Shown piece by piece: positions 5,970-25,597 of a stretch of DNA of 55,291 bases (within the stretch, counting starts at the first letter, position 1; each line of letters begins with the position of its first letter). Under the pieces are notes generated by a model. The model made no database searches. It saw nothing but the letters and a program-made list of their open reading frames with translations, and was not told the DNA's origin. Origin of the DNA: Bdellovibrionales bacterium (lineage in GTDB: Bacteria > Bdellovibrionota > Bdellovibrionia > Bdellovibrionales > UBA1609); the NCBI GenBank assembly GCA_019695175.1, contig JAIBAM010000015.1:1-55291 (forward strand). Reading direction: 5' to 3'. The translations under genes and the position numbers were made by a program.

Positions 5970-8900
5970 ATGAGACCAAATGATTTTCATTTTGTTTTGA
6001 ATTTTTGCGTTCAGATTTTTAATTTGGCACGCCAAAATATTCGAAGCATAACAATGTATTTATCTGTTTGCTTGTTGTTTTGGTTTTCTCCCTTACTTGT
6101 ATACGCTAATGAACCGCTTATGCTCACACCGGCGCGAGCCAGACAACCGATTTACCTTGCGGATCAAAAAGGACTCTCAATAGTAGATGAAAATGGTAGA
6201 TTTAACTTGGTTTTTCCTGGACAGGTGGGTTGGTTAGATGGCTGGCAGTTATATCCTCTTGATCTTTATGGGACGGATTCAAGTGGAACTTATCCTGCTG
6301 TCGCAGTGATCGATGGAAAAGTTATTGTATTCAATAGAAGATCAACTTTGGATAGTCCGAGTTCTTATATCCGTTTAGAAAATATCGTGGATCCATTACA
6401 ATTGGGTCGAAGTAGAGCTGAAATTGATCCACTATGTGTACTTGATACAAGGTCTTGTAGAAGACGTGTGAGTGTTACTTTTGACACCAAAGATACAGGT
6501 TCTAAACAATTTTTTTTCATCTTTTTTTCCACAGAAACGTTTTTATATTTACCCAATCAGGAAGTAAGGACAGCCCATACGGCTTCTGTCGTTATCACTA
6601 CCAATGCAAAAGGAGAGTTAATTCCAGCTTCGCCAACTGTACTTTTAGATGATAGCTATCATAGTGAACCCGAACTAAGAACAGGATTTGTCCAAACGCC
6701 GAATACTGGCAGTGATCGTACCTGGGACTTTTTATATCTGCCTTCCCCCAGAGGATTACAGCAACGTTTAGCATATCTTGGTTTAGTAGCCCCACAGGGT
6801 CAAGGTGCTACCTCAACAGATGCAACTGAAACGGTACCGGCGGGTCACTTTGAGCTGTTGCGAGAGGTAACACATATCCAACTCATGATGAATACTGCAG
6901 CCCCTTTAGTTGCTACTTCGGGAATTTCACTGAGATTTAATCCTAACAGAAGTGTGTTTGAAGATCCTAGAGGATTTTTTAGGGGACTATTCTCAGAGAG
7001 ATATCCAGCAAATCAAATAGGTAGTATTGACCCTGCGCCTGAAGTATATGGAGTACAAGAATATTCGGGAGTAGATGCCTATAGAGCCATCGAAGGGGTC
7101 ATGAAAGTTGGAACTGGCAGTGGGAATTTCGTACTCCCAGGCTTATTTGCCTTTAGTGACCATGGGTCCGGTAGAAGAAGTTTTGCTATTTATGAATTTA
7201 AACCTCCCACGAATGACCCTGCATTTATAAGGTCAATCCTTGTAGTTTCATCTGCTGGTCATTTATTTTTACATATTCCTGAATCACATACAACCATACC
7301 TCTGAAGTTCAATCTGCCGTTGGACAAGGTGGATCCTGTGGTATCACAACTTCAGTTCGCAACTGTACAAAACCCAGAAGGTCGTCTCGCTGTTGTATTA
7401 AATTATGTGACTGAGAGCGTTCCTGGTAGCAATAGATTTAATTTGAACGTCATTACAGTTCCGTCAGTATCAGTAAATGATACAAAAATTCAAAATACAT
7501 TCTCATTTGAAGTAAGAGGTTTTCTACCAGACTTTTTATCTCGTTTTGTCAGGGGAAATGAGGGTAGAGAATTCCAATTTAGTTTTGGCAATTTGACTGA
7601 GGCAGATGGAAGATTACCTGGTGGTGTGGATTTATTTCGCACTATGTATGCAACTAGTGGGACCGCAGTTCCAGCTTTTGAGAAACGAGAAAAAATTTTA
7701 ACCTTTGTTAATCATAATGAAACAGCAGGCGACTCCTCACTAGAGTTGATAACTGATCCTTCAGCGGGCGCTAATCATTCTCATTCAACCTTGGCTGGAG
7801 GGATTCATCTAGTAACACCTCGTACTCGAGTTCCATTGGCAACGGGGACCCCTGTTCCTTTGCCTCAAAGGCTGGCTACGTCAATAGGTGGTACTTCAAC
7901 CCTGCAGTATACTTCACCATCAACCGGAGAGCAGGTTATTTTTTCATCTAAAGCTTTCTTTTTAGAGGGTCCAAATAAAAGGGATAACACCGTTGTCGTT
8001 TTAACATCTTTAACTGAGGGCTCTACAACAACATATCACCTCGGTAAATGGAGTTTAGATGATTTAGCTGTTGATAGTGTAATGGAAGCCGTGTTTGTGT
8101 ACAAAGTACCTCCAAATGATAATGTGACACCCAGCGCCGATTCTGAAAGAGTGGTTTTATTAGTTTTAAAAACAAAGGATCAATTGTTGGTCTATAAGAT
8201 ATTTTCTGATAGAGGCAGAAGGGAGTTTGATCCTTCCAGAAGAGCTGAACTTTTACCTCCAAAGGCACATTTATATCGAACTGATGTTTCAGGCTTAAAT
8301 GGTAAAAGAATAGTTGATTTTTTAGGGAAAAATCCTGCTACAGGAGATGTATCTCTTTTGGTTCCTAATCTGGTACATAGTGATCAGATAAGAACTGTTC
8401 TTCTTACTGGGATGGGTGAAGGGATACCTTCAAATGCTATAACAACAGGCCCTATAGGTATTGCATTAGAACCCTATGACCCTGCTTTTCAAGTAAGACA
8501 TCCTTGGGGGGTGAGTGTGGGTAAGATTTTAACTCAAATACAACCTTCTTCAAATCCTTTCTTACGTGCATTACTTGCAGATACATCTGATAGAGCGGAA
8601 CGAGTTTTAAATGAAACTGATGGTAACCATTTCCTATTCGTTTCTGTTCCAGGTGATATGAGGGCAGCATTTTTAAATGATATTCTTCGTCGTATCGCAA
8701 TTGATGTCAGTAATTTTAAACCAAATAGCTTAATTTATGTTGTACCTAAGTTACAAAGTCAGGAAGCTTTTTTGTCCGCACTCAGAAGTTTGCCTAGAGA
8801 ACAACATATTACCCTTGTAATAGGAGAAAATTACAAATTTCTAACTGGAAAGATGTTTCAACATGATCCACGGTCCATGAAGACTGATTTGGCTCATCTC

Positions 8901-11417
8901 TTAACTTTTGGTTCGGATTCCGGATCGTCCCCAGCTGTTGCTTCCAAACAACTTTTAGGGCCAGTGGAATTAGTGCATACATTCTTATCAAATGATAGCC
9001 CGAGGAGATCTAGTATAACTGTCGTGGTTGTGGATACTCCAAGCGGTAATGCAGGTGTGGTAGAAGCTCTTGGAAGGGGAAGTAGAAATAATGGGAGTGA
9101 TATCGATTCAATCTATGCTGAACAGATAAGTCCATCAGTTTTTGCAGAGCTTATTCAAAAAACACTTAGAGAATATCTCTTGATAAATTCAAATGTTAAG
9201 TTTGTATCTCCTGATGGAGCAGTAGAAAACATCGATCAAGGTAGATTTAGTTCTAAGTTTTTAACCTATTTGATGGATATCGCAAATCACGTGCTTCATT
9301 TAAATTTAGATGCAGCAAACCCTGATAGTCCCAATTTCAGAAGGGTAGCTAATTATTTAAAAATACTTATGGAACGCTTAGATGCTCTTTCTGAGCAATC
9401 CGAACAAATAATTGATTCAGATTTTTTTCTCACAGTCTTAACTCATGCATTTCCAACTGCGGTTTCGTTAACAGTAAATCAACTTTCCAGTACTCATTTT
9501 TTAACCAGGTTAATGAATTTGACTGAAGGAGGTTCTCCAAATGGTATTAGGAGGTTTCATAACACCCTAGTAGGCCAGGGATTTTTGGGTGGTTACGATC
9601 AAACCGAATTATTAGTACGGCTCTTTTTGGAACCCATGCAAAGTGAGCATAGAACAGACATAGCCCAAACAGGTATAAGGCCGCTCATTTTTTTAGGGCC
9701 ACCAGGCACCGGCAAAACTGTATCAATAGAAGCTTTTCTTAGGGAATTAGGTTTAAATGTAGAATTTGGTCCAGATGAAGCGCGTTATAAAGAAATAGTA
9801 ATGGGTTTAGATGGCGCGAAAACTCTGCCAAAGGGATTCCATGTAGGACCATTGGTACTCAAAATCTGCTTAGCTGAAATAGAAACAAGAAAAGGGGAAA
9901 GAACAAACTTTCCAGAAATAGCTCGTAAGATTATTGAAGCGTGGCACAGAGGGCTCCCTCATGGAGTCGGTGTTATTTTTGTTGACGAAGTCGCCGTAAA
10001 AGTCAAATTCCCTGACTTACTAAGGGTATTATTGGATGATGGACGATATTCCAGAGTGGTAATGATAGGGCTTGGCAATCCTTTGGATGCCGTCGATTCT
10101 AAGAAATCAGCTCAAGCTGCCTTGGAAGAAATCTGGAGGAGAGAATTAGAAGCTGAACTTCCTGCTCTCACCTCTAGAGTGAATAAAAGGGGTAGAGTAG
10201 TTTATTGGCCTACATTTGCACCTACAACATTTCTTACCGAAGCGGCTGCCAGGGCTTATGCGAATCTGATGCACAGGCTATCCGCTGGATCAGGTTTTGT
10301 TTTTATTTCTCCAAGAGTTTTAATTGAGTTGGCTGCGTGGTTAATCAGAATCAATGCAAATGACGGAAGAGTTGTCGTAGGTGGCATTGAGGCTGCTATT
10401 AAAGCTGCAATTATTAGGGGATCAAACCATGGAAAGGGGCCACAATTACTCATGTTGAATCATTTATTAGACAATTCTCCAGTTGATAAATTAGATAGCG
10501 CATTCTTTACAAGAGATATTCCTAGAACACTGTCCAATACTGACTACACTCATTTAAATGGAAAAGAGATCACCGTATTAAGAGAAGTCACTTCTGTTGT
10601 GGTTGAAGCTTTTAGGTCAAAACTGTACATGGCTATTCAAAAAACAGGGTTTCATCAGTGGTACAATACTGCATTAAGTTCAGGACTTTCTCCTACATTG
10701 CAGGCGTTAACCCAACACCTTAATCAATTTCCCATTATTCCCGCGAGTGAGTTAATGCGGATCCCGCAATCAAACCTTTTTGTATCGAATAAAATTGGTC
10801 AAACAACGACTTCGCCGTCTAACGAATCAAGATTTCCACTTGATTCAAGCGAAGTTGAACTTAAAATGAATGAGGCAAAGTTGGCGGCTCTTTCCAATTT
10901 TCGAACAGATATTAAAAGAATACTTGTTGAATACTTTAGTAAAGAAGATGGTGTTTCTATTTTTTCACCCAATACTCTAGAGAGATTGAGCAAAATTCAA
11001 AATCTAGAAAGGTTAGCTGGGGAGATCAATGGGTTAGTATTTAGTTTTTGGAAACATAAAGCTTTTGCGAATGATAATGTCTCCGGTATGGCAGAACTAG
11101 CCCAAATGGCCTTTATTGTATTAGAACAAGAGTTGTTGTTAATCGTTGACTGGATCGGTTTAACTCGTTCACTTTTAAACTATATTGGGAACACTGATCT
11201 AGTTCATGCACCACAAAATGCAGCCGGAATTTTGGATTTATTAGGTTCGCCAACGACACTTCCGGGACGAGGTGCCGGTTTTGAGCAACTCCTGAAACAA
11301 ATAAGTGAACAGGTAGTGAAAACTACTGCTTTTGGTTCAGCTCATTTAGGAGTTCCAAAGCCAATAAATAATGCTGTTTGTCATGATTTGCTAACAGGCG
11401 GAGGCGAGTCCTCCTAA
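5970..11417 (+). CDS. Giant exported or membrane-anchored protein with Clp/HSP100-like AAA+ C-terminus
   Basis: The product is 1815 residues. An N-terminal hydrophobic segment (about residues 29-46, ending LLVYA-NEP) looks like a signal peptide or anchor. About 850 beta-rich residues follow, possibly propeller-like, with no enzyme motif. The C-terminal part resembles HSP100: an LVGQ motif shortly before Walker A (GPPGTGKT, 1243-1250), Walker B with Asp-Glu at 1339-1340 (VIFVDE), an arginine-finger-like TSRVN and a sensor-2-like region. An upstream segment around 880-1010 looks like a first ATPase module whose Walker A has become VSVPGDMR (891-898). Start: AAAGGG lies 9 bases before the ATG at 5970; an alternative ATG at 6054 would leave a signal without positive charge. 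An exported ATPase is odd because the periplasm lacks ATP; a signal anchor with the ATPase inside is an alternative. It ends 4 bases inside the convergent nrdB. Confidence 0.75.
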   Translation: MRPNDFHFVLNFCVQIFNLARQNIRSITMYLSVCLLFWFSPLLVYANEPLMLTPARARQPIYLADQKGLSIVDENGRFNLVFPGQVGWLDGWQLYPLDLYGTDSSGTYPAVAVIDGKVIVFNRRSTLDSPSSYIRLENIVDPLQLGRSRAEIDPLCVLDTRSCRRRVSVTFDTKDTGSKQFFFIFFSTETFLYLPNQEVRTAHTASVVITTNAKGELIPASPTVLLDDSYHSEPELRTGFVQTPNTGSDRTWDFLYLPSPRGLQQRLAYLGLVAPQGQGATSTDATETVPAGHFELLREVTHIQLMMNTAAPLVATSGISLRFNPNRSVFEDPRGFFRGLFSERYPANQIGSIDPAPEVYGVQEYSGVDAYRAIEGVMKVGTGSGNFVLPGLFAFSDHGSGRRSFAIYEFKPPTNDPAFIRSILVVSSAGHLFLHIPESHTTIPLKFNLPLDKVDPVVSQLQFATVQNPEGRLAVVLNYVTESVPGSNRFNLNVITVPSVSVNDTKIQNTFSFEVRGFLPDFLSRFVRGNEGREFQFSFGNLTEADGRLPGGVDLFRTMYATSGTAVPAFEKREKILTFVNHNETAGDSSLELITDPSAGANHSHSTLAGGIHLVTPRTRVPLATGTPVPLPQRLATSIGGTSTLQYTSPSTGEQVIFSSKAFFLEGPNKRDNTVVVLTSLTEGSTTTYHLGKWSLDDLAVDSVMEAVFVYKVPPNDNVTPSADSERVVLLVLKTKDQLLVYKIFSDRGRREFDPSRRAELLPPKAHLYRTDVSGLNGKRIVDFLGKNPATGDVSLLVPNLVHSDQIRTVLLTGMGEGIPSNAITTGPIGIALEPYDPAFQVRHPWGVSVGKILTQIQPSSNPFLRALLADTSDRAERVLNETDGNHFLFVSVPGDMRAAFLNDILRRIAIDVSNFKPNSLIYVVPKLQSQEAFLSALRSLPREQHITLVIGENYKFLTGKMFQHDPRSMKTDLAHLLTFGSDSGSSPAVASKQLLGPVELVHTFLSNDSPRRSSITVVVVDTPSGNAGVVEALGRGSRNNGSDIDSIYAEQISPSVFAELIQKTLREYLLINSNVKFVSPDGAVENIDQGRFSSKFLTYLMDIANHVLHLNLDAANPDSPNFRRVANYLKILMERLDALSEQSEQIIDSDFFLTVLTHAFPTAVSLTVNQLSSTHFLTRLMNLTEGGSPNGIRRFHNTLVGQGFLGGYDQTELLVRLFLEPMQSEHRTDIAQTGIRPLIFLGPPGTGKTVSIEAFLRELGLNVEFGPDEARYKEIVMGLDGAKTLPKGFHVGPLVLKICLAEIETRKGERTNFPEIARKIIEAWHRGLPHGVGVIFVDEVAVKVKFPDLLRVLLDDGRYSRVVMIGLGNPLDAVDSKKSAQAALEEIWRRELEAELPALTSRVNKRGRVVYWPTFAPTTFLTEAAARAYANLMHRLSAGSGFVFISPRVLIELAAWLIRINANDGRVVVGGIEAAIKAAIIRGSNHGKGPQLLMLNHLLDNSPVDKLDSAFFTRDIPRTLSNTDYTHLNGKEITVLREVTSVVVEAFRSKLYMAIQKTGFHQWYNTALSSGLSPTLQALTQHLNQFPIIPASELMRIPQSNLFVSNKIGQTTTSPSNESRFPLDSSEVELKMNEAKLAALSNFRTDIKRILVEYFSKEDGVSIFSPNTLERLSKIQNLERLAGEINGLVFSFWKHKAFANDNVSGMAELAQMAFIVLEQELLLIVDWIGLTRSLLNYIGNTDLVHAPQNAAGILDLLGSPTTLPGRGAGFEQLLKQISEQVVKTTAFGSAHLGVPKPINNAVCHDLLTGGGESS

Positions 11418-16560: not shown

Positions 16561-17922
16561 ATGAGTCTTTTCGTTGGGATTCTCATTTTATTTACTCCTT
16601 TTTCTTTTGGAAAAAATCTAACTGAATCGACTTTAGGATTAAATTATTCCCAGTACATTAGAGCCGGTGAACTGTATTATCGGGAGGGTGCCGCCCACTC
16701 CACTCAGTCACTCCAATTGGGGTTGCGCAGTGAGGTCCAGCGTAAATCATTTTTTGGGAGACTTCATTTCCGAGATGATTTTCAGGCTCAAGAAGACTTT
16801 CATTATGTAAAACCTTTTGAGTCTGATGTAGGTTGGCACAAGGGGACCTTAAAAATAAGTGCGGGTCGCACCCTTTTTTCTTGGAGCGAAATGGATGACC
16901 TTTGGCGACTGGGTTTATGGCAGCCCCGATTTATGGACGATAAAATAAATCGAGAGCCCGCAGGTTTAGTCGGATTATTTATTCAAGATCGTTTTCAGAT
17001 ATTTGATGTTGTGCTTATGGTTACTCCTCTTTTTATCCCTGAGATCGGCCCTCATTTTAACGAATCCAATGGGGCTGTTGTTTCTAGAAACCCTTGGTTT
17101 CATGAACCTACAAGTGAAATCAACATGGAAGGTACAATTTATCCTTTAAAATACAATATTCAACAACCCTCAGTAGGGGAACTGATTCAACACGGTTCTA
17201 TCCTTGGAAAAATAAAATGGAATGGCGATGGAAAAACATTTTTTCAGTTGAGTGCTGGGTTGAAGCCCATGAATCAACTTTTTTTAGGTTTACCGATTAA
17301 TAAACAACAAAGAGATTTAAGTTTGGCCCAAAGCTATGTAGAAGCTTTACCTCACACTCGTTTGTTGTACCATCAATTATGGAGTGTGGAAGGTGGATTG
17401 AAATCTCGAGGCCCTTGGACTTTGTGGGGTTCCTTAACGCGGGAAACACCCCTCCGAGATCAAACCCCAGAAGGTTGGATCACACAGGAAACCGGCCCAG
17501 CGTGGGTTGGATCTCTCCACTTAGGCTATCGAGCTGGTGAAGGTTCATTGGCTCCTGAGTTTTTTATAAACTATTTGAAGTTGTCGGGGGGAGATTTGCC
17601 CGATCGAGGTCCTTTTGTAAGTGAGGAATCTTTTTTTGAAAGAAGATATTTATTTCAAGAGGCCCTGCAGTTAGGGTGGAAGGGATTGCTTCCGGGAAAA
17701 TTAAGTTCTTTACGATTTTCTTCATCACTTTTATGGGAGCAGGCTCAGCATGGGGTTTTGTTTCGGAATGAACTGAGTCAAATGGTACAAAAGAAAATTT
17801 ACGTTCAATTGTATGCCGATCTTATAGGGTTGGTTGATAAGTCGGGTTCGGTTACAAATGGTTTTACTTCGCTTTATCGGGCCAACGATCGTGTTGGCAC
17901 TCAGTTGAGTTATTCTTTTTAG
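16561..17922 (+). CDS. Predicted outer-membrane beta-barrel protein (cassette 1)
   Basis: The 453-residue protein has a signal peptide (MSLFVGILILFTPFSFG-KN) and no other hydrophobic helix. It is rich in alternating strands with aromatic residues and ends in SYSF, a typical barrel-assembly signal. It is paralogous to the product of 20486-21889: shared blocks include WRLG-L/I-WQP, the pattern P-x-x-GP-x-F-x-x-x-NG-x-x-VS followed by WF, and KPMNQ-x-x-LG. It is followed 25 bases later by an EF-hand lipoprotein gene, an arrangement repeated in cassette 2. Function unknown; a channel, or an export partner for the lipoprotein, is inference. Confidence 0.75.
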   Translation: MSLFVGILILFTPFSFGKNLTESTLGLNYSQYIRAGELYYREGAAHSTQSLQLGLRSEVQRKSFFGRLHFRDDFQAQEDFHYVKPFESDVGWHKGTLKISAGRTLFSWSEMDDLWRLGLWQPRFMDDKINREPAGLVGLFIQDRFQIFDVVLMVTPLFIPEIGPHFNESNGAVVSRNPWFHEPTSEINMEGTIYPLKYNIQQPSVGELIQHGSILGKIKWNGDGKTFFQLSAGLKPMNQLFLGLPINKQQRDLSLAQSYVEALPHTRLLYHQLWSVEGGLKSRGPWTLWGSLTRETPLRDQTPEGWITQETGPAWVGSLHLGYRAGEGSLAPEFFINYLKLSGGDLPDRGPFVSEESFFERRYLFQEALQLGWKGLLPGKLSSLRFSSSLLWEQAQHGVLFRNELSQMVQKKIYVQLYADLIGLVDKSGSVTNGFTSLYRANDRVGTQLSYSF

Positions 17923-17947
17923 GCGGGTGAGAACAAAGGGGGGGGGA

Positions 17948-20170
17948 ATGGAAAGGATTTTAAGTTTATTATTTGTTTTTATTTTTCTTTTGGGTTGTGT
18001 GGGCGAAAAAGATCCTTACTTCAATCCCCCCGTGATTAGTATTAAAAGTGGAAAGCTGCAATGTCTCTCCAACATAGACCAAACTTTGGAGGATTTTTTT
18101 TCAGGTCAGTTGGCTGATAAAAAAAATGAAGAAAAAATTAACCAACTTTGGAACTGCGTTGACTATGCGATTTCACAATTTATGAGTTTGGTTAATGGGC
18201 AAGGGGGAAAAAATTATTCCCCCCACGAGTTGGCCAGCTTTCTAGATGAACACTTTCTGAATCGCCGGGGGCTTAATAATGAAAATGAATTTTTAGAGGA
18301 GCTCATGGAAGTAAAAAAATTGCTCATAGGTGGTTCCTCGACTTTAATTTCATTTGAAGATCTGCAACTCAGTCTTAAGGTGGTTTTTCCTGAAATCAAA
18401 CGAATTATGTTGATGCTTAATCCTCACATGGAGGTTCTTCATGGCCTTCTGGTGTCAAATAAAACCGCCCTGTCTTTAAACTCTGAAAAGGTTCAAAGGG
18501 CCTTGCAGGGGTTGCAAAAAACCAGTGAACCTTTGGCTCTCTTGTTAGAGAGGACTCAATCAAAATATTCATTTTCACATCTAATCCATTTAGTTAAAGG
18601 GTATGAAAGTTTTGTTAAAAAATCCAATTCGAACTATTCTTTAGCTCAAACTCAATTGACCTTAAATCTCCTAAGTCATGTGAGAGGATTATTTTTGGGT
18701 CCTCCCCTAGATGAGATTGAAGCCAAGGATTGGAACTTCCTATTTTCTAAATTTATAGAAGTGCTCACCTGGAGTGTGCAATTAAGAATGAGTTTTTCCT
18801 CTGAACAGTGGCAGGAAGGGTCTGGTTTAGGGACCTTAAATCAGTTGGTTGGAACGATTTTTCAGACTTTGGAACAAGGGTTGAGGTTGCAGCCAGAACA
18901 AATATTTAGTTACACGGCCATGGAAAAAATTGTTTCCATTTTGGAGCAAATGCATTTGATTCCATTAGGATTGGATGGATCAACTTTAAATGAAGTGATG
19001 ATATTACTAGGAAATCAAACTCTATCCGTTGAAGGATCAAAGGTAGGGTGGGATGAAAAGGATATTTTATTTTTACAAAATGAAGTAAAACGTTGGTTTG
19101 AAATACAAAAATTTAGTAATGAATATTTAAATCCTAAACTCAGTAAAAATATAAAAAGTGACTTGGAGTCGAATCCAATTCATGAAATGAAACAGTTGTT
19201 AGAAGGTTCTCCTTGGCCCTTAAGACTGGATGAACAAGGGCGTTTGGAGTTTAACAACAATATTAAAAACCAACAATACAACCAAAAAAGTTTAACTACT
19301 TTAAATTGGCAAAGAGCTTTGGTGCGGTTGCTTTTGAGACCCTATGGGAATTCAGAGAGTGGAGACGAAGTCACAGGTTTATCTTTAGAACAACTGAATC
19401 GTTTGGCTTCAGACTGGCATAAGCTGGCCGAAAAAATGGGTCTCTTTGATGAGGGAATGTTCGAACAATCTGCTAAAAAAATCCTTATTGAGGCCAATTT
19501 ATTTATGCCTTCTGGACAGGGCGATGGGAAATTGGATTTTATTGAAGCCGTACAGTATTTAGCTACAGTGATTTCAGGAATGAATATGGTACAGACGTAT
19601 TGGCCCTTAATTCAAGGCTCCTGTGCCAATCTTGGTGGGGACACCCATGAAGAGAAGTTCCTATTTTCCTGTGTGAATAAAGAAATATTTTTGAATAAAG
19701 ATAAAATATTGCATTCGATGCCGTTACTTCTCGGATTTACTTTGGAGGATCAGAAGGTCTGGCTCGATTATTTTTCCATGGCAAGATTGACGACGAATCG
19801 AGATGGACTAACGCAACCGGTGAGTCGCGGAGACTTAGTAGAGACAATGGTTCTTTTCCACTATATAGAAAACTTTTATGCCCGTTTTGATGCCAATCAG
19901 GATCAAAAAATAAGTGTGGAGGAAACTCTGATATCCTATCCCGTTTTTAAGGAAAACCTTAACTTGGCTTTAGGTGGTTTTCTGTCGGATACAGATTTGT
20001 TAACTCTTTATACTTACCTTTTTAAGTACGGAAACCTGCCCTTTAATGAGTTTGGCGGTTCGGTTAAGTATTTAAACTGGAAATGGAAAAGAGAGCGAAA
20101 CGAGTGGTTTTACCTAGCAGATAGGTTCAGTGTTATTAAAATTTTGGCTCAACTGAATCAATCGTTGTAA
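17948..20170 (+). CDS. Large lipoprotein with a C-terminal EF-hand loop (cassette 1)
   Basis: The 740-residue protein begins MERILSLLFVFIFLLGC, a lipoprotein signal with Cys17 as the modified residue. The body is mostly predicted helix without enzyme motifs. Near the C-terminus, residues 648-659 (DANQDQKISVEE) form a complete EF-hand loop with Asp1, Asn3, Asp5 and Glu12, so calcium binding is likely. It is paralogous to the 21915-24653 product (shared N-terminal pattern of a short helix, then L-x-x-LM-x-VK and LNP-x-M). The ATG at 17948 follows a run of nine G (17938-17946); an in-frame GTG at 17927 would put that run inside the gene. It follows the barrel gene immediately. Confidence 0.75.
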   Translation: MERILSLLFVFIFLLGCVGEKDPYFNPPVISIKSGKLQCLSNIDQTLEDFFSGQLADKKNEEKINQLWNCVDYAISQFMSLVNGQGGKNYSPHELASFLDEHFLNRRGLNNENEFLEELMEVKKLLIGGSSTLISFEDLQLSLKVVFPEIKRIMLMLNPHMEVLHGLLVSNKTALSLNSEKVQRALQGLQKTSEPLALLLERTQSKYSFSHLIHLVKGYESFVKKSNSNYSLAQTQLTLNLLSHVRGLFLGPPLDEIEAKDWNFLFSKFIEVLTWSVQLRMSFSSEQWQEGSGLGTLNQLVGTIFQTLEQGLRLQPEQIFSYTAMEKIVSILEQMHLIPLGLDGSTLNEVMILLGNQTLSVEGSKVGWDEKDILFLQNEVKRWFEIQKFSNEYLNPKLSKNIKSDLESNPIHEMKQLLEGSPWPLRLDEQGRLEFNNNIKNQQYNQKSLTTLNWQRALVRLLLRPYGNSESGDEVTGLSLEQLNRLASDWHKLAEKMGLFDEGMFEQSAKKILIEANLFMPSGQGDGKLDFIEAVQYLATVISGMNMVQTYWPLIQGSCANLGGDTHEEKFLFSCVNKEIFLNKDKILHSMPLLLGFTLEDQKVWLDYFSMARLTTNRDGLTQPVSRGDLVETMVLFHYIENFYARFDANQDQKISVEETLISYPVFKENLNLALGGFLSDTDLLTLYTYLFKYGNLPFNEFGGSVKYLNWKWKRERNEWFYLADRFSVIKILAQLNQSL

Positions 20171-20485
20171 AATATATCATTAAATAAGTAATTATTATAT
20201 GATTTTTCATTCACAAATTGCACTCTTTTAAGTTCTGTTTTGAATAGTGGATATTTAAAAACAAAAATTATAAAAATTACAATTTAAATGTAATTAATTT
20301 TAAAAATATAGATGCCATTGTGAACGGGGATCTGAACCGTTTACAATCGAGCCACTTCTTTTTTTTACACAATTATGAACACGTATTAGAAGTTAAAAGT
20401 TTCAAGCGCGTCGAACAAAGTTTAAATGTTTGTAAGAGCTTGATTTGTCGCGTTGGCATTTTGAAACCTTTCAATAAGGAATCTT
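20171..20485 (+). promoter_or_regulatory. AT-rich control region of cassette 2 with two inverted repeats
   Basis: This 315-base gap separates the two cassettes and has no gene. It holds a 7-bp inverted repeat, AATTACA (20275-20281) with TGTAATT (20289-20295), and an 11-bp near-perfect stem, ATTGTGAACGG (20317-20327) with CCGTTTACAAT (20337-20347), with one G-T pair. The ribosome site AAGGA (20476-20480) sits 5 bases before the GTG start at 20486. The repeats suggest a binding site or a structured leader; this is inferred from sequence alone. Confidence 0.4.
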
Positions 20486-21889
20486 GTGAAGCGTATTTGT
20501 TTCATTTTAGTTTTACTAATGGGGTCTCGGTTCACTTTTGCCCAATCAGGGTCTCTTTTTGTAAAAAAAACTCTCGAAGTACAGCTGTTGCAAAAACAAT
20601 ATTTAAGTGAAACGCAAAATTCCAATCAAACAAATCAATACACTTCCTTTGCGGGTGGTTTTAGTTTTGAATCTAAAGCTCAAACCCAGTGGCCATTTGG
20701 GGGCCACTTTTTAGGAATGATTTCAGTCGATGGTTCCGAGCAAGCTTACTTGGCAGCACCCGAACTGTATATGGGAGTGAGGTCTCTGGAAGAGCAGGGG
20801 TTGGGAATTATAATCGGTCGAAAAAAGCTCCAATGGAGTCAGTTTAATGAAGACTGGCGTCTTGGAATTTGGCAGCCGCAAATCCGATGGGATTACTTAC
20901 GTCCTGTTGAACAGGGGCTCACAGGATTTTTTGCCTCTGTTCGGGGTCATGACTTTAATATAACTGGATTTATTTCCCCTTTAACTCTACCGGATCAAGG
21001 GCCCAACTTTCACCTTGTTAACGGAGAGTTTGTTTCCAGCAATAGATGGTTTCGGCAACCACAGAGTCGTCATATGGTACTTCAGCAAGATCGACCTGTT
21101 AGTTATGAATTGGTCAATCCTAAGATCTCCGATATTTTATTTAACTCCGGTATGGGACTTAATATTGTACTGGGTCATATGGAGAATGGTTTTTGGCTTA
21201 ATACATCCATGGCAAATAAACCCATGAATCAAATTCATTTAGGTATTGAGGGATATCATTCGGTTTCATCCGATCGATTTATGGAATCGGTTGCAGTCAT
21301 CCACCCTATGGTGGCTCGTCATTCTGTGGTCACGGTTGAGTCTGGATTTAGTTCGGATGATTTTAGGGGATGGATTTCTTACACTGAAGAAAAACCAGAA
21401 AAACCAACTCTTCCGAGCGGATGGAGTCAGTCTGCACTTTCCAATGCAAAGTTTTATGGAGCCTCTGTATCCCACCGCCTTCCTTGGTTGGGGTGGAAAA
21501 ATCAATGGGCAAAATTGGGCTATATGTATTTAAGTGAAAGTAGAGTTTCGATGATTTCATCAGCTTCGTCATCTGGTGGGATCGGGGATGATACGTTTGA
21601 ATCGTCCTTCGATCGATATCCTTATCGCCAAGTGGTTAGTTTAGGGTGGCAAGGCAGTCTTTTGGAACAATTCAGTCAACGCATTAATTTTAAATTAAAC
21701 TATCTTTATTCTATACCGGAACGAGGCTCTTTGTTTTCTGCAGAATTGGAGTACAGTCTGAATAAAAATACCAAATGGAATCTAGGGATGGACATTTTAG
21801 GTGTTGAAACCGATGGTTCACAACGTGGACTGATGGGTCTGTATCAGAATAATGATCGCATCACTGGTGGGCTCAGTTATATTTTTTAA
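20486..21889 (+). CDS. Predicted outer-membrane beta-barrel protein (cassette 2)
   Basis: The 467-residue protein starts at a GTG with AAGGA 5 bases upstream. Its signal peptide (MKRICFILVLLMGSRFTFA-QS) has a clear cleavage site. The rest is strand-rich and ends LSYIF, a typical barrel C-terminus. It is a diverged paralogue of the 16561-17922 product, with the same conserved blocks in the same order. The tandem copies have separate upstream regions, so they may be regulated differently. A lipoprotein gene follows after 25 bases. Function unknown. Confidence 0.75.
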   Translation: MKRICFILVLLMGSRFTFAQSGSLFVKKTLEVQLLQKQYLSETQNSNQTNQYTSFAGGFSFESKAQTQWPFGGHFLGMISVDGSEQAYLAAPELYMGVRSLEEQGLGIIIGRKKLQWSQFNEDWRLGIWQPQIRWDYLRPVEQGLTGFFASVRGHDFNITGFISPLTLPDQGPNFHLVNGEFVSSNRWFRQPQSRHMVLQQDRPVSYELVNPKISDILFNSGMGLNIVLGHMENGFWLNTSMANKPMNQIHLGIEGYHSVSSDRFMESVAVIHPMVARHSVVTVESGFSSDDFRGWISYTEEKPEKPTLPSGWSQSALSNAKFYGASVSHRLPWLGWKNQWAKLGYMYLSESRVSMISSASSSGGIGDDTFESSFDRYPYRQVVSLGWQGSLLEQFSQRINFKLNYLYSIPERGSLFSAELEYSLNKNTKWNLGMDILGVETDGSQRGLMGLYQNNDRITGGLSYIF

Positions 21890-21914
21890 TAAGAAAGGTT
21901 AATTAGTTATTTGC

Positions 21915-24653
21915 ATGAAATGGTTATCTAAAAATTCAGAGTCAAAGCATTTTAAATTTTTGTGTAAGTTCTTAGTTTTTATTTTTTTACCAATCTATTT
22001 TGTCTTTTTTTTGAGCTCCTGTGGATTGAAAGTGGGAGAAAAAGCTCCCCAGGATAAGCCCATTGTCATTGGTGGCTATGCTTGTATGACAAAGGTGGGC
22101 GAAAAAGTGGAGGCCTTTTTAGGTGCGCGTCTCTCGGATGCAGATATTATTCAATTTGTAGAATGTGTACAGGAATCTTTTATTAGCTTTGGTAAGTTTA
22201 CTCGAGGTACTTATCGGGACAGTTTTACTTCAGAAGAAATTCGTACTTTCTTACATCAGTATTTTATTCGGGATCGTGAGATCAGTGATGCCTTTTTAAC
22301 AGATCTAATGGTGGTAAAACAGACCATGGTGGGGGGTCCTGCGGATCGTATCACCCGTTCTGATTTGGCGCGAGCCATTGAAATTTTAGGGTTTTTATCC
22401 CAGCAGTTCGTAAAGCTCAATCCTTACATGAAGGTTTACAATTTCAACTTAAATCTCTCCAACTTGTCTTCAGGTTTTTTTCCTAAGCCGGAGGATGAAA
22501 AACAAAATTTGGATCAGGCCACTCGTACTTTGGAAGAAGTAGGTAAAGCCATTGGTGAAAAATTCATGATGGCAGAACAAAATTATCCTTTGGAAAAAAT
22601 GGAAAGTTTTATTGACGAATTTCGTGAATTTTCTGGATGGAATAAACTTTTTCCAGATGCAAAACCTGCAAAGGTTTGGACAGATTTAATTACGATTTTT
22701 AACACCATTGTTACTGGAAATGAAAAATCTGAAGTAAGACCTCGTGATTGGCCTGTTTTATTAAGACAAATGGCCAAGTGGTATAATTTTAAATTAAAAT
22801 TGAACTACACCCTAAAGCAACCATCTCTGCTTTATGGGGACGGGTTTCAGAACTTAAAAGAGTTATTTGAAAACTTTAAAGAGATTTTGCGGTTTGGAGT
22901 GAATGCCCAATCCCCAAAAATCGTTTCCTTTTCTAAAATTAATCTGCTTATAGAAAGTTTTGAAAGGGCCAACATGTTGTTTACCATTCCCACGTTCAGT
23001 GCCTCTAAATCAAAACAAGGGGTCATTAACCCCCAGCGCATTTCTTCAGCTAGTTTGAAGACCGTCGTGGAAGTGCTTTTGCGTCGGGGATTCAGCCAAG
23101 ATCAAGTGCAAAAAGTGATAGCTAATGCTAGATCCAGTTCGGGTTTGGATGAGTTTTCCATTGTTCAGTTGGAATCTGAAGTGAATTTTTGGTTTGAAAC
23201 TCAAGAATTTATAACTAAAAATTTTAAGGATAATCAAAACTTAGATCAAGTTCTTACGGGTTTGGATCTTATTTTTGAATCTGAGGCAACTGTTGATACA
23301 TCCGTCCCGAATCCCTCGGACATCGTAAAGGATGGTCCTAGCGCTATTTTTTATTTACTTGAAGGACTTCGACCTTTTTTTAAAAAGGATGAAGATCAAA
23401 TTTCTTTATTGAACTCTTCGGATGTTAAGGTGTCTTCCCGGGCTCAGTTCCATAATTTGTCAGTAATGAATGTGATTCGAGGGTTAATTTCCCTGTTGAT
23501 GCGTGGATACAGTAATACTTCTAGTGGGAGAGGGACGTTTGGCCTGGGGAGTTTTCTTTCAAAGGGGGAATTGCGGAATTTTTATAATGAGTTTAGGGAT
23601 GTTGGGATTGAGTTTCAGCTTTTTGATCCTGCAGCTGAAGACACTCCAGAAAGGGTTTTTCGCGACTCAAAGTTATTTACTTACTCAGGGAATGGAAAGT
23701 TTCCCGAATCAAATTTGCTTCCACAATTAGGTGGGAAAATACGACTCTTTCCTGATAAAATGAGTTTTGTGGAAGCCGCTGAAATTGTCACATTTAATTA
23801 TTCGGGGGGAATGTTAGCGCAAAAAATTTATAAAGATTTAATGAATGATAATGGATCTTGTTTGGAAGCAAGTAAATCTTTGCCCCTTCTTGATAAGAAG
23901 GGGTTTGTCACGCAAAGTATTCTTGATATCCCTGGTATTGAAAAAGAATGTTATAAGAATAACTTGTTTAATATATTGATCTCCCATTTGCAAAACCTGC
24001 CTCTGCTTCAGCAGGAGTTTAACAAATTTTCTGATACTCAAAAAAATATGTTAGTAAATACTTTATTGAGCTTGGTTCCTTCTCAGCTTGGAAGAGAGAA
24101 TATTGTGGATTGGAGTCAGATAACCACAACGGCTGTGATCTTACACTATGTGGAGTCGGTTATAACTCGTTATGACTTAAATTCCGATGGTGAGTTGACA
24201 GGTGAAGAGGTTGACAGAGCCTATGAAATATTTGAACCGTTTTTATCTATTTCCTACAACCAACAACCAGGATCACTTTTGCGTAAAGGTTTCGAGTTTT
24301 TTGTTTACTGCGGACGTTTTCCAGATTTACAAAACAGTCCTGACAGGTCATACATTAATTGGGGTGAGACTCTCGTTAGATTTTCGCATTTTTATCTAGC
24401 CACCCCTAAAATAAAAATAGATAGACTTGGTTTGCTTAGTTTATTTGCACGGTTAATGTCGAGAAGTGATGTTACAAAAGCTCCACAGGAAATATCTAAA
24501 GAATCTTCGGACGCAGATCGGAGTCAATTTTGTGGTGAACAAGGAAAAAAAATAGATAAAACGCATTCTGAAGCAATCCCAATAAATGGGGGTTCACCTG
24601 GAGCAGAGGCCAGACCCCAACTTGACGAATTGATGTTGCCTTGGGGGCCCTAG
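21915..24653 (+). CDS. Large lipoprotein with a C-terminal EF-hand loop (cassette 2)
   Basis: The 912-residue protein has a Lys-rich n-region, a long hydrophobic segment and the lipobox LSSC with Cys36. It is paralogous to the cassette 1 lipoprotein but about 170 residues longer, partly through a C-terminal tail after the EF-hand. Residues 754-765 (DLNSDGELTGEE) are a canonical EF-hand loop including the central Gly. No enzyme motif is seen. The ribosome site is weak; the ATG at 21915 is chosen because it gives the full signal. A perfect 9-bp hairpin (CCCCTTCTT/AAGAAGGGG, 23883-23903) lies inside the gene. It probably works with the barrel protein encoded just upstream. Confidence 0.75.
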   Translation: MKWLSKNSESKHFKFLCKFLVFIFLPIYFVFFLSSCGLKVGEKAPQDKPIVIGGYACMTKVGEKVEAFLGARLSDADIIQFVECVQESFISFGKFTRGTYRDSFTSEEIRTFLHQYFIRDREISDAFLTDLMVVKQTMVGGPADRITRSDLARAIEILGFLSQQFVKLNPYMKVYNFNLNLSNLSSGFFPKPEDEKQNLDQATRTLEEVGKAIGEKFMMAEQNYPLEKMESFIDEFREFSGWNKLFPDAKPAKVWTDLITIFNTIVTGNEKSEVRPRDWPVLLRQMAKWYNFKLKLNYTLKQPSLLYGDGFQNLKELFENFKEILRFGVNAQSPKIVSFSKINLLIESFERANMLFTIPTFSASKSKQGVINPQRISSASLKTVVEVLLRRGFSQDQVQKVIANARSSSGLDEFSIVQLESEVNFWFETQEFITKNFKDNQNLDQVLTGLDLIFESEATVDTSVPNPSDIVKDGPSAIFYLLEGLRPFFKKDEDQISLLNSSDVKVSSRAQFHNLSVMNVIRGLISLLMRGYSNTSSGRGTFGLGSFLSKGELRNFYNEFRDVGIEFQLFDPAAEDTPERVFRDSKLFTYSGNGKFPESNLLPQLGGKIRLFPDKMSFVEAAEIVTFNYSGGMLAQKIYKDLMNDNGSCLEASKSLPLLDKKGFVTQSILDIPGIEKECYKNNLFNILISHLQNLPLLQQEFNKFSDTQKNMLVNTLLSLVPSQLGRENIVDWSQITTTAVILHYVESVITRYDLNSDGELTGEEVDRAYEIFEPFLSISYNQQPGSLLRKGFEFFVYCGRFPDLQNSPDRSYINWGETLVRFSHFYLATPKIKIDRLGLLSLFARLMSRSDVTKAPQEISKESSDADRSQFCGEQGKKIDKTHSEAIPINGGSPGAEARPQLDELMLPWGP

Positions 24654-24745: not shown

Positions 24746-25597
24746 ATGAATGAAGCTTTTTTCCAGAGTACTTTAAAAGTAATTTTATCTCCCTTGTTGT
24801 TGAGTGCCAGTATTTTTTTGGTCGCTCAAGTTATGCCTAACAGATTTAAACATTTTTTATTTTCTTTTGGGGCTGTCTTAGGGTTTTTACTCACTTTTTT
24901 ACAAGTTGTGGGAAAGCCTAAATGGCCCTTTGTTGGAAATGTTCAGTCCTTAGTGGTGAGTTCGTTTTTTGTGGTTTTATTAGGAATGAGTGGTTCGTTA
25001 AATGCTAATTCCCAAGGAAGTTGGCTTAAACGTTATTTAATTGTTGTGTTATTGGCTTTCATAACTTTGAGGACGTTTGTAACCTCACTGTGGAGTATGA
25101 ATCAATCCTTACAAATTATAAGTTTAGTTGGATTGGGGGCCATGTTTACCTGGGCCGCTTTAGAAAAGGCCCAGCTGAGGACCTCTACCAGACTTATGGT
25201 AATGACGTTGGTCTCAATTGCTGTGGCTGTAAATATGATATTTGAAGGCAGTCTGGGGTTAGCGCAATTGACCTTAGCGGTTGCTGGGATGCTCGCACTT
25301 GCCATGGTGATTTCAGCAGTGCCCCTTTTTAAGGGTGGAGTTCATTTAGATGGATTTTTTATTTTGATTTTACTTACGTTGTGGTGTGGGCATTATTTTT
25401 ATGTAAACAAAAGTCTTGCTATAACTTGGGTTTGGATCTTTGCGCCTATTTTTATTCTGGTTTTACAAGCACTTTTTTCCATCAATTTCTATTCACTCAT
25501 CACAGAGATCGTTTTCTTTACTTTATTTTCTATTGCGCCTGTGTCTTGGGGGCTATGGCAAGCTTATGAAAGGTACAAGATGGCTGCTTCCAAATGA
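24746..25597 (+). CDS. Polytopic inner-membrane protein of unknown function
   Basis: The 283-residue product is almost entirely hydrophobic, with about nine predicted membrane segments, few charged residues and no recognisable transport or enzyme signature. It follows the duplicated barrel/lipoprotein cassettes after 92 bases on the same strand and could belong to the same transcript. I do not recognise the family. Confidence 0.6.
   Translation: MNEAFFQSTLKVILSPLLLSASIFLVAQVMPNRFKHFLFSFGAVLGFLLTFLQVVGKPKWPFVGNVQSLVVSSFFVVLLGMSGSLNANSQGSWLKRYLIVVLLAFITLRTFVTSLWSMNQSLQIISLVGLGAMFTWAALEKAQLRTSTRLMVMTLVSIAVAVNMIFEGSLGLAQLTLAVAGMLALAMVISAVPLFKGGVHLDGFFILILLTLWCGHYFYVNKSLAITWVWIFAPIFILVLQALFSINFYSLITEIVFFTLFSIAPVSWGLWQAYERYKMAASK

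Follow-up and report, generated by a model that had tools for sequence, protein, structure and literature searches.

The window analysed here is the 55,291-nucleotide stretch of contig JAIBAM010000015.1 (positions 1 to 55,291, forward strand; assembly GCA_019695175.1) from a Bdellovibrionales bacterium, whose draft genome is about 2.6 Mb in size and whose relatives are Bdellovibrionota. Positions 16561-24653 (+) encode, in this order, barrel 1, lipoprotein 1, barrel 2 and lipoprotein 2. They form two tandem cassettes, each composed of a predicted outer-membrane beta-barrel and a lipoprotein at a spacing of exactly 25 bases. These cassettes represent an undescribed two-gene envelope system that is widely kept in Bdellovibrionota. 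The following features were assigned:

16561..17922, + strand: barrel 1, outer-membrane beta-barrel of 453 amino acids with signal peptide and C-terminal SYSF
16864..16974, + strand: conserved segment of barrel 1, GR...WS..D..W.LGLWQP...GLVG, candidate constriction loop
17948..20170, + strand: lipoprotein 1, predicted all-helical EF-hand-like array of 740 amino acids
17996..17998, + strand: lipobox cysteine of lipoprotein 1 (Cys17), the same residue in every aligned sequence
19511..19546, + strand: degenerate second EF loop SGQGDGKLDFIE, residues 522-533 of lipoprotein 1, in phase with the canonical loop
19889..19924, + strand: canonical EF loop DANQDQKISVEE, residues 648-659 of lipoprotein 1
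20486..21889, + strand: barrel 2, outer-membrane beta-barrel of 467 amino acids with GTG start and C-terminal SYIF
20816..20926, + strand: conserved segment G111-G147 of barrel 2 (GRKKLQWSQFNEDWRLGIWQP...GLTG), candidate constriction loop
21915..24653, + strand: lipoprotein 2, 912 amino acids with a polar C-terminal tail, paralogous to lipoprotein 1
22020..22022, + strand: lipobox cysteine Cys36 of lipoprotein 2, assigned from sequence
24174..24209, + strand: canonical EF loop DLNSDGELTGEE of lipoprotein 2
24746..25597, + strand: polytopic membrane protein of 283 amino acids, tested and excluded from the unit

An earlier sequence-only reading of the window had described the two tandem cassettes with their 25-base gaps, and both coordinates and gaps were confirmed. 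The paralogy that it had proposed for both members also stood, with 29% identity between the barrels (BLASTP, E 1e-35) and 21% between the lipoproteins (E 4e-37). Signal peptides and a terminal phenylalanine are found on both barrels and a lipobox on both lipoproteins. According to profile search, the genome contains exactly two genes of each family. Promoter and terminator scans of the locus gave signals no higher than in shuffled sequences.

Distribution, gene overlap and co-evolution of the pair

With two-sequence profiles, the barrel was identified in 47 and the lipoprotein in 44 of 59 relatives. The co-occurrence check suggested in the sequence-only reading was run on 293 Bdellovibrionota genomes using 37-sequence profiles, which identified the barrel in 243 and the lipoprotein in 240. 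Both families were present in 240 genomes, the barrel only in 3, the lipoprotein only in none, and neither in 50 (concordant in 290 of 293), these counts being of related genomes and not of independent events. Independent occurrence of the two families in most genomes, which had been named as the refutation of a joint role, was not observed. Of the three barrel-only genomes, G216 and G227 have fragments (E 6e-4 and 2e-4), and in G229 a refined model reveals a lipoprotein next to the barrel. The genomes with neither gene sit within pair-carrying families (e.g. genera g26 and g40 and several members of family f12), and the two genes therefore have apparently been lost jointly, several times. Two cassettes are still present in genomes of 1.2-1.3 Mb (G017, G030). 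A closer-alignment search of genome contigs returned Bdellovibrionota records and one metagenome-assembled genome; its patterns detect close relatives only, and matches in other phyla could therefore escape it. Viral contigs and plasmids contained no detectable relative. The Bdellovibrio screen and proteome papers that were searched make no mention of either family in their main texts.

The two genes are direct neighbours in most of the loci examined, across the phylum. The order barrel-then-lipoprotein was found in 102 of 108 linked pairs; four are divergent and two show the order lipoprotein-then-barrel. Pairing therefore outlives changes of orientation. Apparent orphan genes were mostly located at contig ends or hidden beneath antisense frames, while single extra lipoproteins in genomes G013 and G283 are true exceptions to pairing.

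Among the 94 co-directional pairs, 88 share a single phase of the lipoprotein frame with respect to the barrel. In 82 of the 94, the barrel gene carries, exactly 11 bases ahead of its end, an ATG in the lipoprotein frame, typically within the barrel codons Tyr-Val-Phe-stop; TATG is common by chance in a barrel end of this kind, and the non-chance part is that the partner frame opens there. The preceding barrel codons carry a Shine-Dalgarno-like sequence in 74 of the 82 cases, compared to a background of 15%. In 39 of the 56 pairs with a recognisable lipobox, a signal peptide fits only if translation starts at the 11-base ATG. The gene design is striking: the last part of the barrel gene, at its outer-membrane targeting signal, also supplies the partner with its ribosome site and start codon.

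Tree distances of barrels and lipoproteins correlate across 101 pairs (r 0.82). Since related genomes inflate this value, within-genome swaps in tandem loci were used. For 16 such loci, the observed r of 0.83 exceeded the maximum of 0.75 obtained in 1000 random within-genome swaps of lipoproteins. Cassette mates co-evolve beyond species history. Co-occurrence, kept adjacency, the fixed overlap arrangement and the co-evolution of cassette mates support well the earlier suggestion of a joint role for the two proteins, and it is therefore very likely that they form a cognate complex.

Predicted folds of the two proteins

Searches of Pfam, NCBIfam and the PDB with single window sequences gave nothing useful, namely two insignificant EF-hand matches and noise; matches of window proteins to RecX and threonine synthase were rejected as such noise. 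With a limit of E 0.1, a Pfam scan of 37 barrels detected no barrel family, including OprD and alginate-export, and neither a plug nor a TonB-dependent receptor domain. The barrel profile matched zero chains of the PDB sequence set.

The AlphaFold model of barrel 2 (mean predicted local distance difference test score, pLDDT, 89.5; predicted template modelling score, pTM, 0.86) displays a barrel only, with no further domain and with at least 21 strand segments. The solved folds that match it best have 18 strands. AlgE ranks first in Foldseek (E 2.4e-10, template modelling score about 0.5), and structural re-alignment (VIA) placed OprD/Occ channels, chitoporins and AlgE at the top, with Z of about 21. 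The best solved barrels align over 300-340 residues with 8-13% identity, which speaks for fold and not for function; for the OprD/Occ channels the fit is 3.4-4.3 Å over about 300 residues. OmpM and OmpC-MlaA are also among the fold matches. The best-conserved barrel stretch, G111-G147 (consensus GRK...WS..D..W.LGLWQP....D.L.P..QGLTG.F), connects two strands and, by likeness to porin loop 3, probably lines the pore.

The Pfam EF-hand match of a single window lipoprotein is weak (E 0.1), but the EF-hand label applied in the sequence-only reading proved real at the level of the family. Pfam EF-hand_6 was matched by 8 of 37 family members, and the lipoprotein profile matched solved EF-hand proteins at residues 637-687 (E ~1e-3). 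The canonical EF loop pattern occurs 99 times in 114 lipoproteins, as compared to 6.6 occurrences expected from shuffles over all positions. It is located at the same alignment position in 84 of the 114, where lipoproteins 1 and 2 read DANQDQKISVEE and DLNSDGELTGEE, respectively; both sequences fit the twelve-residue calcium-type loop with ligands at 1, 3, 5, 9 and 12. No TPR or Sel1 repeat and no peptidoglycan-binding domain were detected by Pfam in the 37 lipoproteins scanned.

The AlphaFold model of lipoprotein 1 (pLDDT 86.6, pTM 0.82) is all-helical and contains about 12 sites with a short strand before a helix, as in EF-hand loops. Foldseek's own ranking listed generic helical repeats only, none with significance. 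Upon structural re-alignment (VIA), EF-hand proteins dominate, with a best Z of 8.6, although such values are reachable by helical proteins through common arrangement alone. The EF-hand fold is convincing for the C-terminal half, because structure here agrees with independent sequence evidence. Profile comparison also revealed an internal repeat (residues 75-150 versus 190-275, probability 95) and aligned loop 522-533 in phase with loop 648-659 (probability 56). The near-invariant cysteines 39, 70, 559 and 575 would suit disulfides outside the cytoplasm. The role of calcium in the lipoprotein may be structural only.

In Bdellovibrio-type genomes (L111, L116, L123, L171, L174 and L180), one lipoprotein is about 1020 amino acids long, versus 760-800 in its paralogue, and profile matches are interrupted in its first part.

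Known systems and the proposed function

The best analogue of the pair is AlgE-AlgK, the alginate export pair of Pseudomonas, in which a barrel and a helical-repeat outer-membrane lipoprotein are thought to form one complex (PMC9734138). The models predict a similar barrel size and fold and an all-helical repeat partner. The pair described here is similar in architecture but not a member of that system: AlgK is built of TPR repeats and the present lipoprotein of EF-hand-like units, and the present barrel falls outside the alginate-export sequence family as well as every Pfam barrel family. The neighbours of the cassettes vary by clade, with no alginate synthesis, acetylation, epimerase or polysaccharide synthase genes among those identified.

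OprD/Occ channels share the predicted barrel fold, with an identity of about 10% and no Pfam match to the OprD sequence family, and to our knowledge have no obligate lipoprotein partner. SusC-SusD and TbpA-TbpB are also pairs of a barrel and a lipoprotein, often duplicated as pairs. The present barrels, however, are of about 450-470 amino acids and lack a plug or TonB-dependent domain, and the lipoprotein differs from SusD and TbpB in its EF-hand-like fold. With EF-hand proteins such as calmodulin, CDPK, the penta-EF protein calpain and ALG-2, the lipoprotein shares a canonical calcium loop and predicted units of the helix-loop-helix type; here, however, these units would build a long, lipid-anchored array in the bacterial envelope, with most units devoid of calcium ligands. 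PopA, the major outer-membrane protein of Bdellovibrio, is likewise an outer-membrane barrel of predatory Bdellovibrionota, but is a pentameric, lipid-trapping, porin-like protein (PMC12228718), whereas the present barrel profile matched no PDB chain.

We favour as rather likely the reading that the pair is a two-protein outer-membrane conduit with a docked helical lipoprotein, similar to AlgE-AlgK in its working. Each cassette would specify one two-part outer-membrane machine. The barrel would act as a substrate-specific conduit of the OprD/AlgE-like kind, and its highly conserved tryptophan-rich segment probably folds into the lumen as a selectivity loop. The lipoprotein, held at the outer membrane by its lipid, would dock its helical array of EF-hand-like units on the cognate barrel, most likely from the periplasmic side, and pass the substrate on, accept it or gate it. 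One putative calcium site, sometimes two, may stiffen the array or make docking calcium-dependent. The overlapping genes of most relatives are probably translationally coupled, which would match protein amounts. Duplication of the pair as a unit before the genera of the order split would have produced two machines, probably with different substrates.

Several observations weigh against the conduit and the tight pairing on which it builds. Family f10 has the barrel and lipoproteins at separate, unlinked loci (L106, L107, L108, L112-L114, L117-L119, L121, L124), although the partnership seems to survive this loss of linkage. In the window itself, the two genes of each cassette stand 25 bases apart, and the 11-base overlap is absent. 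Positional orthology in tandem comparisons is 68% for lipoproteins versus 100% for barrels; the history of the lipoprotein is therefore noisier. The EF-hand Z values of at most 8.6 are moderate for a helical protein, and the low identity to known barrels leaves function aside. The cassettes show no consistent linkage to genes for transport or polysaccharide synthesis.

Alternatively, as in SusD-SusC or TbpB-TbpA, the lipoprotein could be displayed outside the cell, pick up a ligand, for instance from prey, and pass it to the barrel. Such surface capture would agree with the large size of the lipoprotein, its pairing with a cognate barrel, the duplication into pairs whose substrates probably differ, and conservation across predatory lineages. 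We consider it unlikely: none of the 37 barrels has a plug or TonB-dependent receptor domain, which therefore argues against energised import of the SusC kind, and we know of no EF-hand array that serves ligand capture in such a role.

It is quite unlikely that the lipoprotein is primarily an envelope scaffold, which assembles or tethers (by barrel insertion, or by joining the outer membrane to peptidoglycan or lipid-transport parts) with the barrel mainly as its anchor. Retention of the pair in genomes of 1.2-1.3 Mb suggests a core envelope role, helical-repeat lipoproteins are often scaffolds, and OmpM and OmpC-MlaA are among the fold matches. However, the strongest conservation lies in G111-G147, as expected of a pore loop and not of an anchor, and the Pfam scan of the 37 lipoproteins revealed no peptidoglycan-binding domain.

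More doubtful still is a calcium-gated outer-membrane conduit of the phylum, in which the EF-hand array would open and close its cognate barrel and the two cassettes would provide two specificities for exchange with prey or host cells. That the genes are chance neighbours, or are linked to an essential region without physical interaction, is highly improbable: the cassettes of the window family do lie near ribonucleotide reductase and FabMG genes, but this is contradicted by joint loss, the absence of lipoprotein-only genomes, the overlap of the genes, co-evolution specific to the cassette and the persistence of pairs in differing neighbourhoods and orientations, and co-occurrence alone largely refutes it.

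The system belongs to a phylum known for bacterial predation, in which many genes from predation screens are without known function, and it would be a case of an EF-hand array used by bacteria in lipid-anchored form.

Neighbouring genes

The 283-amino-acid polytopic membrane protein noted in the sequence-only reading is present downstream of lipoprotein 2 on the same strand. Its membership in the unit did not stand, and it was rejected as a third partner: a search of 35 other genomes of the order, among them the draft of the same genus, detected no relative. The flanking genes for ribonucleotide reductase, FabMG, Kdo transferase, ChaN and hydrolases vary between clades and were likewise rejected as partners. 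Upstream of the ribonucleotide reductase genes, positions ~5970-11415 (+) of the window contain an open reading frame of 1815 amino acids.

In two families of the order, a ChaN-like haem-binding gene (PF04187) is located beside or near the barrel or lipoprotein (L107, L111, L113, L116, L117, L123). Many relatives also possess a second conserved pair near the cassettes, in which a secreted protein of about 400 amino acids overlaps a lipoprotein of about 1000-1400 amino acids (L115:15593-20000 and L122:15432-20000; also L072, L077, L085 and L096). Neither protein has a Pfam match in the members scanned. This second pair may be another system of an outer-membrane protein and a lipoprotein.

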